Shown: piece after piece, positions 111 to 61,069 of the stretch
Position numbering within the stretch: position 1 is the stretch's first letter
How the letters are laid out: every line of letters begins with the position of its first letter
DNA from: Agelas oroides
Taxonomy: Eukaryota; Porifera; Demospongiae; Agelasida; Agelasidae
Direction: 5' to 3'
NCBI GenBank assembly: GCA_949130485.1
Contig: OX422191.1
Coordinates: forward strand, 2,017,358 to 2,081,357
Length of the DNA stretch: 64,000 nucleotides
Program-made: the position numbers and the translations under genes
Notes under the pieces: generated by a model
Databases searched by the model: none
What the model was told of the DNA's origin: nothing
Seen by the model: only the letters and a program-made list of their open reading frames with translations

Positions 111-279
111 CCTGTGGTAAGGTATGCTTGGGCAAGCAGGAGATTTTGCTGCAGCAAGAAGCCACGTTGGTTGCAAGCAAAACGGCGCATGAAGGTGTGG
201 TCAAGGAGTAACATCATTGGTGTCCTCCTCCTCCTCCTCCTAGCAGGGGATGTTGAGACCAACCCCGGACCAACAACTG
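111..279 (+). CDS. Gene A exon with hydrophobic leader and 2A ribosome-skipping motif
   Basis: The reading frame runs from the acceptor at 110 through a basic stretch (SKKPRWLQAKRR), an internal Met at 189, a six-Leu run and GDVETNPGP, then ends in phase 1 at the donor GTATGT (280). The exon at 50988-51159 has the same layout and nearly the same residues, down to the codons around the 2A motif. DxExNPGP is the established signature of 2A peptides, which make the ribosome skip the Gly-Pro bond. The product would be an upstream peptide ending NPG and a separate downstream protein starting with Pro. A Leu-rich segment directly before the motif is also how 2A-like signal sequences look in sea urchin NLR genes. 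The Met at 189 could serve as an alternative start. Confidence 0.75.
249..272 (+). other. 2A peptide motif DVETNPGP, gene A
   Basis: The codons read D-V-E-T-N-P-G-P, an exact match to the D-(V/I)-E-x-N-P-G-P consensus. It lies directly after LLLLLLAG and 7 nt before a splice donor. Skipping would occur between the last Gly and Pro. Confidence 0.85.
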
Positions 280-358
280 GTATGTAGACACTTGTTGGTT
301 GGTAACAACACTTGTTGGTATGTAGACACTTAATTGGTAGTAACAACAGGTACAGAGG

Positions 359-1109
359 TTAAGGTGGCGGGTAAGCTATCCACGCAAGCGCAATAATTGT
401 TTCCGGTTTACGCCCACCATTGTACAGCTGGTTTTTCTTCTTGAATGAAGCAAATCACTGTAGCAGCTGCTTCAGTAGCTTAATATCGATGAGCTACGTA
501 GCCGTACAGCCGTACTACAAGCGACAAAAGCATGAAGGAAACCCTGAGAAGTTTCTACGTCGTCAATCGCCGTACATCAATGGCCACGCCCACCGAGAAG
601 GCCAGGGATACATTTTTTTCGTGACGCTTCATGAATCAGGTAAACGACTTTAGGAACTCTCTTTACTATAAACAGCTTCTCCAGTGGTTAGTCGAGGGGG
701 TAACGTAAAGTTTTTGTGACTAACAATTGCCGGGGAGAGTTCGTACCGCGAAACGCCACAAAAAGTGACTTTCCAATAACAGTTTCAACTCGCCATCCGT
801 TAAGCTTTACAGCTTATGACCAAAACTCTACGTAGCCCCCTCTAGCGACTGTTGAACTTTCTCCTTGCCAAGAGTGGAGAATGTGGCTCTCGTACCGTGC
901 GAGTGAAACGTGATGAAAAATTGTAAAACTCAACCACTGCTCTCCGCGCTATTTTTTGTAGCATGGTATCAAGATTTGTTACACAGATAGTACTTGCCAT
1001 ACAGTACTTGAATATCAAGTTTGGCTGTAAGTGATTGCACAACTAGTAAGATGAGACATTTTATATATGGCAGATAATTTATCGTGAAATTGTTTACCCG
1101 CCACCTTAA
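359..1109. mobile_element. TTAA-flanked MITE-like element in gene A intron 1
   Basis: The ends are mirror images: TTAAGGTGGCGGGTAA at the left and TTACCCGCCACCTTAA at the right. A TTAA target duplication with short terminal inverted repeats is typical of piggyBac-type elements. No transposase frame is present in the 750 bp, so it is non-autonomous. Confidence 0.6.
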
Positions 1110-57560: not shown

Positions 57561-59335
57561 ATAATACCCTGAAACCAGTGCTCACAAAAGTTCCAATTTC
57601 TAACCTGGAGGATGTGAGCGAAGGTGATCACATCATAACTGGTACCCAGCACTACCTTGTTGCCAGCATTGACACAGAAATTCATGTGTTCACTGGTTAC
57701 ACTTGTAGAAGTGGAAAAGTTGTAAAAGAGATATGTACATTTAATGCAAAGTCAACTTCTCGCATTGACTATGAGGAGTCCTTATCCTCAACGAAAGCAA
57801 TTGGAAACGCTAAGCGAGAACTTCAGCAAGGGGAGTGGTCTGATGGTGACAAATTTGTCACAAAAATGAAAACCAGTAAACAGTATTCATTCAATGAACA
57901 GTGCCTTTTCAAGGAGGAAATTGAGTTCAGTTGCACAAGAATAGCTCCTGGAATAGCAGTCGATGAAGGTGATCACCTTATGGTGAAGGACAAATGTAGC
58001 AACTACCACTCTGTACTAGTACTCAGGCATGCTGGTGGAAGTACACTCCTTGTCACACCAGATCTGGATTCAAAGGAACGATACGGGAATCTTTCTGTAG
58101 ATAAAGATACTGATGTCTATCGCATCAACTATCCGCAAAGTTTACCAGTTGTTGAAGTTGTTCAGAGGGCTATGAGTGACAAGGGGTCTGAAGTTCTTAG
58201 AGAGTGCAGAAGTGAATTAAGTAAGTTTGTATCATGGGCTAAAACAGGAAGAAAAGAGATTATAAATGTTACGCAACTGAGGTCACAAATTGCTCAGGTG
58301 TGCCCATTTCAGCATGAAAAAATTCTGTCAGTTAATCAAATAAAGGTGGGAGATCATCTCATTAAATCCTGTGGCATCCCTAAATTCCACACACACTGGT
58401 GGCACTTCATGGTCACTGAAGTCAGCCATCCACCTAACCCCTTTAAGATCATTCACTGCACTAACAGTCGCATATCAGAGACAGAGGAGACTCTTGACCC
58501 CAGCAAGAATGATATCTACCGAATTATCTATCCTGAATCTCTTTGTGTTAACGAAGCTCTTAAGAGAGCCAGGTCAAAGCTTGGCACTTATGATTTTTCT
58601 CCTCATGCACGCATGTGGTTTGTAAGATGGGCCAAGACTGGTTCTGAGGATGGAATCGAGGTTGAGTTTCTTCTAAACAATGCAATACCAGCATCTAAGA
58701 GCCGCATCAGTACCTTTGCCCAAATCAATCCAGGAGATTACCTTGTTGAAGAAGAAGACAAAGTGACACCATGGCACCATTACCTTGTGACAGAGGTGAC
58801 ATCTCCTCTCAGCTGCTCAGCTATCGAGTCTTGGAACTGCAAGGTAACAGCAAGGAAACTTACCTTTAATAAGGAGAGCACATACTATCGGCTCAACTAC
58901 AACGATGGTGCTTGTATTTCCTCTTGGAAAGCCATAGCTGATGCACGCCAATTACTGGGAGAATATTTCTTTACACAGAATAAACGGCAGAACCTTGTGA
59001 ATTCTTTAAAAACTGGAAATGCTATGGACATTAAAATTGATAGTCTTCAGGATGATTGTACTTTGCTTCGAAGAGAAAGAGTAAAGTCAGCTTCAGAGCT
59101 TCGACCAGGAGACCACATAGAACGTTCAACTCCTTTCATCAGTGCAAGGTACCACCACATGATGGTCACTGAGCAACCTCATCACGATAGAAAATGCACA
59201 GTTATCCATTTGACGTCAGATGTCATTGAAGAGGAAGAAGTGGACATTTTTAAAGAAGGAGACAATGTTTTTCGACTCAAGTATCCTGAACGATGTGATC
59301 CAGAACAAGGCATTGAATATCTGAGGAGTCTTCAG
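57561..59335 (+). CDS. Gene C exon 5: LRAT-like units 2-5 and first half of unit 6
   Basis: 591 codons between acceptor cagacacag and donor GTAACT. An acceptor 6 nt earlier (tttcag, 57554) would add two residues in frame. Closing motifs: KFVTKMKTS (unit 2, with Gly lost), KFVSWAKTG (3), WFVRWAKTG (4), NLVNSLKTG (5). Unit 4 keeps both His (WWHFMV and KIIHC), unit 6 has YHHMMV and TVIHL. No NC-box Cys in units 2-5. Confidence 0.8.
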
Positions 59336-60328
59336 GTAACTCTGAGTTCACATTCTTTGGCAGCTGAGCATGATGCATGTAATATTTCTAACAGTTTCCT
59401 GAAGCCGTTAAGTAAAATACTGTTAAGCACAACTTAGTATATACACTTCTGTGTACCTGATACATATTATATGTAGATGTTGAGACCACAGGCTGTTCAG
59501 GTCTTATGTACCGTACTTCCTTGAATACATGTCTGGGTGTTTATTTCCTTCAGCACTCTGTAGACCCAGCCTCAAAACAAGGCTGGCTTTTAAATGGGGC
59601 CAGCATTTATAGAACTACTTGTAAGTTTGCTGAGTTTATTGATGTAGCAATAGCCCATTTTGCTTTAAACCCAACCCCTGACTATGTAGCTTCCATTTTG
59701 GTCAGTTAGCTAACACTCTTGACAGAGAAGAAGAGAAAAAGTACTGATTGATATTTTCATACCAGATTGCACTTCACATGAGCAAACTGTCCAGTGGAAA
59801 ATGAGGTGGTCAAGATAACTGACAGAGGGCATATGGTTTAGTACACTGAACAAAGTAGTAGAGCATCAATCAGGAAAAATTAATGTACACAAAAATTTGC
59901 TTGTTGACTGTAGAAGACTGGATGATGGTTGGCCAACTTTCTTTGTTACTTTCGGGTAATTGATACGCATGTAGCCACATTCTCTGGGCATAGCTTGGTA
60001 TGATAATTGTAAGTTGTGATTATTATTTATGGTACAAAAATGGAGATGCTAATAGATATGGCTAGTTCTGCAGCCACACTGAATCTATGGCCCAGGGATG
60101 TTTACACTTCTGTGAGCTTTATTGATCTAAATTGCCCAGATATGTGATACCGTTCTGTGCCTAGGAATGCTAAGCTGGTGTAACGTGTTGTGCATTTACA
60201 TACACAGGTGTGACTTGCAATTAAGGCCCTTAAAGAAAAATGGGTAGCAGAACACAAAGTGTTTCCATTACATTACATATTATACATGGCGGTAGCGTGG
60301 TGATTACATCTTGCTACTTTCCATACAG
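59336..60328. other. Gene C intron 5, no gene seen
   Basis: Unremarkable sequence. 'ccgtacttccttgaatacatgtc' at 59512 resembles the end of the 17516 MITE family. Confidence 0.45.
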
Positions 60329-61069
60329 GACTACCACAGTGACATGTTTGCATTTTTTCACAAAGATGAACACTTGATAATGAAAGCAACAGTGGGTGAA
60401 CATCTTAGTATCCAAGTTACAGATCGTCAGCATCAAGCTTTAGAGCATACAACAACAGCGGTCATATTCACTGGACTTGCCTTCGGGAAGATCAATGTAG
60501 CAGCTGCAAGGGGAGCTGCTACACAGGTTATAGTTAAAGGTGCTATTAACGCTTTCAAGGCTGCTGCAAGAGCTGGTGCAGCTGGTGCGGGTGCAGATGG
60601 TGCAGCAGTAGGAGGTGCAGAAGCTCTCTTCCAACTAGGTTACCGTGCTGCACTCTCTGGAACTGCCATAGGCATAACAGCTGGTGTTGCTGTTGCTGCC
60701 AATCTGATAATAGAAGGACCATTTCTTGCAAGAGCTGTGTACAAACTGCACCGTAAGAAAAAGTTTGATCAAATACCACAACATGAATTTGAACGGGGTT
60801 TTGTCAAAGAGTCTATCAAATCCGCAAACACAGTTGTTGGTGGAGTAGTGGGTGCTATTCTAGGACAGGTTGTAATACCCGTCCCTGGTGTTGGGGCTGC
60901 TATTGGAGGAGCAGTTGGTGGCATTGCTGGACAGGTTTTTGGCAGAGCCGAAGGGTGGGCTGCAAGCAAACTCATTCGTGATCCCAGACCTGTTACACTA
61001 CCTCAGCTGACAGAGACTTCATTCGTTGATAATCCCCCACCCTTGGACGAAAAGAAAAAAGCTGAATAG
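60329..61069 (+). CDS. Gene C last exon: NC half of LRAT unit 6 plus glycine zipper
   Basis: Phase 0 entry. HKDEHLIMKATVGEHLSIQV completes unit 6 with Asp at the Cys position. The Ala-rich part lacks most of the Lys seen in B (AARAGAAGAGADGAAVGG). YKLHRKKKFDQIP and the zipper (GGVVGAILG ... GAAIGGAVGGIAGQ) follow, then FVDNPPPLDEKKKAE and TAG. The stop is directly followed by GTGTGT, a possible relic of a donor like the one that in gene B leads on to ZU5. Confidence 0.75.
   Translation, partial: DYHSDMFAFFHKDEHLIMKATVGEHLSIQVTDRQHQALEHTTTAVIFTGLAFGKINVAAARGAATQVIVKGAINAFKAAARAGAAGAGADGAAVGGAEALFQLGYRAALSGTAIGITAGVAVAANLIIEGPFLARAVYKLHRKKKFDQIPQHEFERGFVKESIKSANTVVGGVVGAILGQVVIPVPGVGAAIGGAVGGIAGQVFGRAEGWAASKLIRDPRPVTLPQLTETSFVDNPPPLDEKKKAE

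Follow-up and report, generated by a model that had tools for sequence, protein, structure and literature searches.

In a 64,000-nucleotide stretch of the genome of the sponge Agelas oroides (contig C9:2017358-2081357, hereafter the window; the assembly comprises 259 Mb in 141 contigs), three related genes, A, B and C, have a 2A motif upstream of an array of units with the LRAT fold. 2A motifs cause co-translational skipping of the Gly-Pro bond, and LRAT/H-REV107 proteins are normally single-domain acyltransferases or phospholipases. On balance we favour a reading in which genes A and C, and probably a copy on contig C21, are single genes that would each yield a peptide released by skipping and a cytosolic, non-catalytic LRAT array, in which the array of gene B lies within a DEATH-domain protein, and in which the 2A element is a shuffled cassette.

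A six-frame scan of the window found NPGP at only three sites, all on the plus strand and one in each gene. The gene models were built by hand on GT-AG sites. For A and C they give six-exon frames from ATG to stop, of 1080 and 1096 amino acids and with no internal stops; the exons measure 79/91, 89/92, 169/172, 420/420, 1796/1775 and 690/741 nucleotides (A/C), and the five introns have identical phases in the two genes and are all GT-AG. The first exon encodes a signal-peptide-like start (MENSLLFTLALLSFGLCSRA in gene A), the second a small stretch with a conserved Cys, and the third the 2A element. The 420-nucleotide LRAT exon is common to A, B and C, as are an array exon (1796/1820/1775 nucleotides, A/B/C) and a Gly-rich exon (690/826/741 nucleotides), and a phase-1 GT donor lies one or two codons 3' of NPGP in all three genes (two in the leader exons of A and C). 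The original prediction, made from the window sequence, had assigned one exon order, with the 2A exon spliced directly to the LRAT exon, to all three genes. This order stands in the gene models of A and C; in B the motif and the LRAT, array and Gly-rich exons are present, and direct joining of the 2A and LRAT exons is doubtful. The leader had also been proposed to be secretory, which is supported, from hydropathy and by eye only, and is strengthened by the separate signal-peptide-like exon of A and C. In both proteins hydropathy peaks at the leucines directly before the 2A core, and the motif MKxWSRSN precedes this leucine stretch in A, C and the C21 copy. New with respect to the prediction are the upstream signal-peptide-like exons, that of A lying beyond the window, and the DEATH, X, ZU5 and second DEATH exons in or after gene B.

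The exons are conserved between the paralogues. The leader exons of A and C share 76% of their amino acids over 58 residues, and the protein encoded by the LRAT exon of A is 66% identical to that of B and 83% identical to that of C. The ratio of nonsynonymous to synonymous substitution rates (dN/dS) is below 1 in all four exon types tested (leader, LRAT, array and Gly-rich), with clear constraint on the LRAT (0.27-0.34) and array (0.24-0.45) exons.

The 2A cores of the three genes fit the pattern (D/G/C/N)(V/I)ExNPGP with a leucine-rich (A/S)G stretch upstream, and the LLLLAG/LLLMSG stretch plus core fits a leucine-rich StopGo motif class described in the accessible part of PMC12846837. The same part reports that, in rabbit reticulocyte lysate, one motif of the LLLLSG-like class (motif 6) showed activity, and that the StopGo motifs assayed skip with efficiencies of about 93% to nearly 100%. 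In genes A and C, exons 1 to 3 would supply a start that resembles a signal peptide, then a short segment with Cys, a basic segment and a 2A element rich in leucine; from the next three exons would come 5.5 units of LRAT fold and a hydrophobic tail rich in Gly. Most ribosomes would skip the bond between NPG and P, giving two products from one mRNA: an NPG-terminated peptide of 109 (A) or 115 (C) residues, predicted from the gene models, that would enter the endoplasmic reticulum (ER), and a protein of 971 or 981 residues that would start with Pro, stay in the cytosol and attach to a membrane through its Gly-rich tail. Ribosomes that failed to skip would make a full-length, ER-targeted form. 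The array would act as a binding scaffold or decoy, for lipid or protein; we do not propose an acyltransferase role for it. In gene B the array would most likely belong to a signalling protein with DEATH domains.

The LRAT fold proposed for the units is supported by structure comparison for array unit 5, which has PLAAT2, PLAAT3 and PLAAT4 among its best structural matches, and by sequence similarity for the remaining units. The unit-1 exon has PF04970 matches that pass the cut-off of 24.3 bits in B and C and not in A (Table 1). Searches of the PDB gave only two matches with the sequence of unit 1 (E 0.94-0.95) and, with a profile of the array, three PLAAT3 chains at values (E 0.7-0.78) too weak to count alone. 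A Pfam scan of 17 window open reading frames (ORFs), out of 66 listed with a length of at least 100 amino acids, gave no PF04970 match in the array exons. In a large protein set the array exon has 148 related proteins, 120 of them listed, and the Gly-rich exon 54. Eight contig sizes are common to both match lists (974034, 2070358, 1041653, 1457415, 137840, 492402, 2351762 and 648842), which suggests that the two exons are neighbours in these relatives too. In prokaryote genomes and viral contigs the motif patterns were matched, and tblastn found no relatives there.

Judged by their active-site residues, none of the units has the complete catalytic set of two His and the NCEHF Cys, and the candidate description of the array as an LRAT enzyme array was rejected on this ground. 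For each of units 2 to 5, not one of 100 aligned homologues combines the first His, the second His and a Cys anywhere in the nine residues that precede F in NCEHF; the second-His column in units 2, 3 and 5 is our own placement, and no more than 1 homologue in 100 has His in the residues around it. A Cys stands exactly three residues before F in 1, 8, 1 and 1 of 100 homologues (units 2, 3, 4 and 5), and within nine residues in 12, 78, 3 and 18. The first His, in the motif YxHW, is widely kept (94/96 in unit 2, 98/100 in unit 4, 94/100 in unit 5 and 78/98 in unit 6), its position in unit 3 being Ser in 95/100. In unit 1, Ser stands in place of the catalytic Cys in A, B, C and the C21 copy, and A, B and C are without the first His. 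Unit 6 retains the two His residues and lacks the Cys-bearing helix. The NCE Cys is intact in all five PF04970 loci outside the family (L001, L002, L003, L004 and L005). The array is like LRAT/H-REV107 (PLAAT) proteins in its fold, in the first-His motif of most units and in its Gly-rich hydrophobic tail, and unlike them in its 5.5 tandem units, its incomplete catalytic set and its 2A leader, to which gene B adds DEATH and ZU5. It looks like a multiplied, disarmed form of a protein made of an LRAT domain and a Gly-rich tail.

The tail had been described as a glycine zipper. A hydrophobic Gly-rich exon is indeed found in A, B and C, and the Pfam glycine-zipper cut-off (PF13488, 25 bits) is passed in C only. 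The AlphaFold model of this exon (predicted local distance difference test, pLDDT, 61) consists mostly of helices with two short strands and is too poor for a claim on its fold. By eye, a Gly-rich hydrophobic tail is present in four of the five LRAT loci outside the family, L005 being different, and the pairing of LRAT with such a tail therefore looks ancestral.

Across the whole genome, close copies of the LRAT exon number four (A, B, C and C21), with one further, weak match of 35.3 bits inside another LRAT locus, and the array exon has four copies. With the leader exon of A there are ten DNA matches, namely A, C, C21 and seven on contig C3. The unlinked C21 copy keeps leader, LRAT and array exons in the same order, all on the minus strand, this comparison covering those three exons. 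Seven places match exon 2 of A (A, C, four on C3 and C21), and in every case a leader copy follows it on that strand, 18.5 kb away at C21. The leader cassette thus appears to be joined with LRAT in A and C, and probably in C21. Since it is also present on C3 without an LRAT exon in the stretches read, it might serve other transcripts. At L053 on C3 (region 1353-9486), an A/C-type leader lies upstream of an immunoglobulin (Ig) exon (PF13927, 45.7 bits), with a DEATH exon (PF00531, 24.5 bits) 8.5 kb from the leader.

In gene B a DEATH exon and an exon without a Pfam match, X, stand between the 2A and LRAT exons, and direct joining of these two is therefore doubtful. Its 2A precedes a DEATH exon, like most 2A sites sampled, so that B probably has the layout 2A-DEATH-...-LRAT array-...-ZU5-DEATH. 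The Gly-rich exon of B runs past the stop of A and C and continues in frame into a ZU5 region, which gives B the look of a fusion. We infer a DEATH-domain protein in which the LRAT array would take the place held by NACHT-LRR or ankyrin repeats at other 2A loci. ZU5 followed by DEATH on the C-terminal side is the arrangement of PIDD/UNC5-type proteins, from which gene B would differ by the LRAT array and Gly-rich exon in front and by a second DEATH exon nearer the N-terminus.

In the 259 Mb searched, a DNA-level pattern that encodes D(V/I)ExNPGP has 285 matches and its reversed form none. At 70 of these sites, on ten contigs, the consensus donor G/GTRNG lies exactly one codon after NPGP, and a pattern one base off gave 0; at such sites the 2A therefore ends an exon. 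The leaders of A and C, with two codons before the donor, fall outside the 70. DEATH exons were searched for at 37 loci (four queries, E 1e-4). The first 30 sites listed are all on contig C1, and 29 of them have a same-strand best match to DEATH downstream within about 1.5 kb, one being without; the 29 include L006, a self-match of the query taken from it (Pfam 20.5 bits, below the PF00531 cut-off of 22.6), at which a single frame runs unbroken through 2A and DEATH region. All seven DEATH exons of gene B's type that were checked have a phase-1 AG acceptor. The 2A loci read, on C1, C3 and C9 plus the C21 leader, include L060, which reads 2A, DEATH (22.4 bits, cut-off 22.6), NACHT (54.3 bits) and LRR in order on the DNA, and L061, which reads 2A, DEATH (25.9 bits), X and ankyrin repeats. 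L061 belongs to a dense plus-strand run of 2A sites at about 4.4-5.1 Mb of C1; the spacing is mostly 10-30 kb, and the run resembles a cluster of tandem genes. No NACHT was found in the 17 window ORFs scanned.

The 2A leader is thus not special to the LRAT-array family and occurs in many places in the genome, and it seems to behave as a shuffled exon cassette that stands before DEATH exons at most of the sampled sites. A bolder proposal, to which we give somewhat less than an even chance, is that a phase-1 2A module has been shuffled before many genes of intracellular receptor type (DEATH-NACHT-LRR, DEATH-ankyrin, Ig/DEATH and LRAT array). Every mRNA would then give, at a constant ratio, one peptide for secretion and one receptor in the cytosol, and the dead array would serve as a new sensor or decoy in this system. 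A retrotransposon origin of the window genes was also considered. In work from 2013 attributed to Odon, 2A was reportedly found in non-LTR (long terminal repeat) retrotransposons near the ORF start in an animal genome, a position that the window genes share; unlike such elements, they have neither a reverse transcriptase nor an endonuclease domain among the 17 ORFs scanned, and this origin was rejected. The ORFs taken from L006, L053, L060 and L061 gave no such domain either.

Several observations weigh against the reading of A, C and C21 as single skipping genes, of their arrays as non-catalytic, of B as one DEATH-domain gene and of the 2A as a cassette. The introns between 2A and LRAT exons are long (2.5 kb in A, 1.9 kb in C), the Gly-rich (0.48-0.67) and leader (0.26-0.61) exons have dN/dS values that are weak evidence for constraint, and no reading frame was recovered from the C21 match to A exon 2. 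At the C3 leader loci the sequence read, which covers 10 kb at one locus, 8 kb at another and about 3 kb at each of the rest, shows no LRAT exon, and none of the seven has a DEATH exon within 1.5 kb; neither of two further 2A sites sampled on C9 has a DEATH exon within 2 kb. The long introns and the C3 cassettes would be expected if leader cassette and LRAT array were separate adjacent genes that duplicated together. We judge this improbable, since the phases match at every junction in two paralogues, the unlinked C21 copy keeps the order, and no other domain-like exon was seen by eye, among ORFs of at least 45 amino acids read without a Pfam scan, between leader and LRAT in A, C or C21. The joined genes could also direct one protein to two places, as in the sea urchin, with ER or secretion where skipping fails and the cytosol where it occurs, the peptide being incidental. 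Such targeting by SpNLR2A leaders is documented, for mammalian as well as plant cells, in the accessible part of PMC4981915, and the leucine-rich stretch, with MKxWSRSN in front, by itself resembles a signal sequence. This is unlikely, although less so than separate genes: A and C have a separate signal-peptide-like exon, their leader of about 110 residues exceeds a bare signal sequence, and the skipping values of the assayed motifs are high (PMC12846837, in the part available). Two products from a single A or C gene thus remain our preferred reading, with the reservation that sequence just upstream of a 2A can block skipping in the translocon, as fluorescent-protein work in the accessible part of PMC2978324 indicates, so that the relative amounts of the secreted peptide, the cytosolic array and the full-length ER form are not predictable.

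For gene B, the phases raise a further objection: X exits in phase 0 and the LRAT exon enters in phase 1, so that joining them needs one more exon. This mismatch, together with a leader that by eye resembles the first 2A leaders of C1, where 2A-DEATH loci lie, would fit two genes, one with 2A, DEATH and X and then an LRAT gene without a 2A leader, 2A-LRAT being confined to A, C and C21. We hold this somewhat doubtful, because the DEATH exon at 28916-29221 exits in phase 1 and could join the LRAT exon directly in phase, and because of the fusion-like passage of the Gly-rich exon into ZU5. Against a wholly inert array, in turn, speak the second His in gene C unit 4, found in 6 of 100 homologues too, the Cys of gene B unit 5, which reads KCHILV, and a Cys seven residues before F in 67 of 97 homologues of unit 3; one alignment sets the latter in the catalytic column, and unit 3 may accordingly have kept its Cys. 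Some enzyme activity could then persist through one of these two Cys residues or through the Ser at the Cys position of unit 1, the first His being kept in units 2, 4, 5 and 6. That the three residues are never found together in units 2 to 5, and that unit 6 has both His residues yet no Cys-bearing helix, makes this very improbable, and a non-catalytic array is the reading we retain.

N-terminal 2A leaders have a precedent. In Strongylocentrotus purpuratus NLR proteins they act as signal sequence and skip element (Roulston 2016; PMC4981915, in the part available to us), standing before DEATH-NACHT-LRR, the layout read here at L060, and one urchin leader contains VETNPG, as do A and C. Unlike the urchin NLRs as that part presents them, the sponge 2A closes an exon with a consensus phase-1 donor at 70 of 285 sites, and in A and C it follows a signal-peptide-like and a small exon and has an LRAT array as partner. 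The original claim that no family with this layout had been described is accordingly narrowed: a 2A leader plus LRAT array was not met in a narrow literature search, and N-terminal 2A signal leaders were known. As far as that search shows, four things are new: the pairing with an LRAT array, a signal-peptide-like exon of its own, a module that closes an exon in a single splice phase, and how many sites there are. StopGo/2A is described as rare in cellular genes in the available part of PMC12846837. If our reading is true, 285 sites, 70 of them exon-ending, and 29 of 30 beside DEATH on C1 would make 2A a routine element in the building of immune-type genes in this sponge, and the question of why 2A starts innate immune receptors could be put to the test in another animal besides the urchin. 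The LRAT array would also be a case of an enzyme fold multiplied and disarmed with its membrane-type tail retained.

Table 1. Exons and motifs of genes A, C and B. Positions are those of the window unless a contig is named.
Feature	Position	Strand	Evidence or remark
Gene A exon 1, signal-peptide-like	C9:2015471-2015549 (upstream of window)		hand model
Gene A exon 2, small Cys exon	C9:2015803-2015891 (upstream of window)		hand model
Gene A exon 3 (2A exon) with basic and leucine-rich stretches before the 2A core, phase 0-1	111..279	+	homologous exon also in C, on C21 and at seven places on C3
Gene A 2A core DVETNPGP, after LLLLLLAG	249..272	+	six-frame scan
Gene A LRAT exon (unit 1), 420 nucleotides, phase 1-1	2777..3196	+	PF04970 23.6 bits, just below cut-off 24.3
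Gene A array exon, units 2-5 and half of unit 6, 1796 nucleotides, phase 1-0	3417..5212	+	hand model, sequence similarity
Gene A Gly-rich (glycine-zipper-like) exon with stop	7960..8649	+	no Pfam match
Gene C exon 1, signal-peptide-like, phase-1 donor	49087..49177	+	hand model
Gene C exon 2, small, homologous to A exon 2, phase 1-0	49263..49354	+	hand model
Gene C exon 3 (2A exon), phase 0-1	50988..51159	+	hand model
Gene C 2A core DVETNPGP	51129..51152	+	six-frame scan
Gene C LRAT exon (unit 1), 420 nucleotides	53075..53494	+	PF04970 25.4 bits
Gene C array exon, 1775 nucleotides	57561..59335	+	AlphaFold pLDDT 90.6 for P0001 (array frame extended to next stop)
Gene C Gly-rich exon with stop	60329..61069	+	PF13488 25.5 bits, cut-off 25
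Gene B leader exon: long, two hydrophobic stretches, 2A	26701..27154	+	start codon chosen by us
Gene B 2A core DIETNPGP, phase-1 donor one codon on	27127..27150	+	six-frame scan; C9:2044484 among donor-bearing sites
Gene B DEATH exon between 2A and LRAT, phase 1-1	28916..29221	+	PF00531 33.2 bits on ORF
Gene B exon X, phase 1-0	29947..30818	+	no Pfam match; by eye like a region in the 2A-DEATH-ankyrin locus L061
Gene B LRAT exon (unit 1), 420 nucleotides, phase 1-1	33196..33615	+	PF04970 24.6 bits
Gene B array exon, 1820 nucleotides, phase 1-0	34400..36219	+	splice-site model
Gene B Gly-rich exon, passes A/C stop to phase-1 donor	37401..38226	+	splice-site model
ZU5 region in frame after gene B Gly-rich exon, phase-1 acceptor	38987..39627 (3' end provisional)	+	PF00791 21.2 bits, cut-off 21; join stop-free
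Stop-bearing DEATH exon downstream of ZU5, phase-1 acceptor	41528..41829	+	PF00531 35.1 bits

Two repeats lie in introns of gene C. An inverted repeat at 54490-55078, in the long intron, has 131-nucleotide arms that are 98% complementary and 327 nucleotides apart, and looks like a small transposable element; a 17-bp tandem repeat occupies 51900-52188, between the 2A and LRAT exons. Elsewhere in the window, Cys-rich exons on the plus strand at 16373-21356, Ly6/uPAR-like by eye and with an EGF-like stretch (no Pfam match in one frame, weak in another), probably belong to a receptor or secreted gene. A local direct duplication (46162-46641 and 46715-47184) was seen by translated comparison. A minus-strand frame at 23369-24130, with an N-terminal hydrophobic stretch, resembles an AID/APOBEC-like cytidine deaminase; its matches to the Pfam families NAD1, SNAD4 and APOBEC2 are below cut-off, and it contains the HxE and PCxxC motifs of such deaminases.

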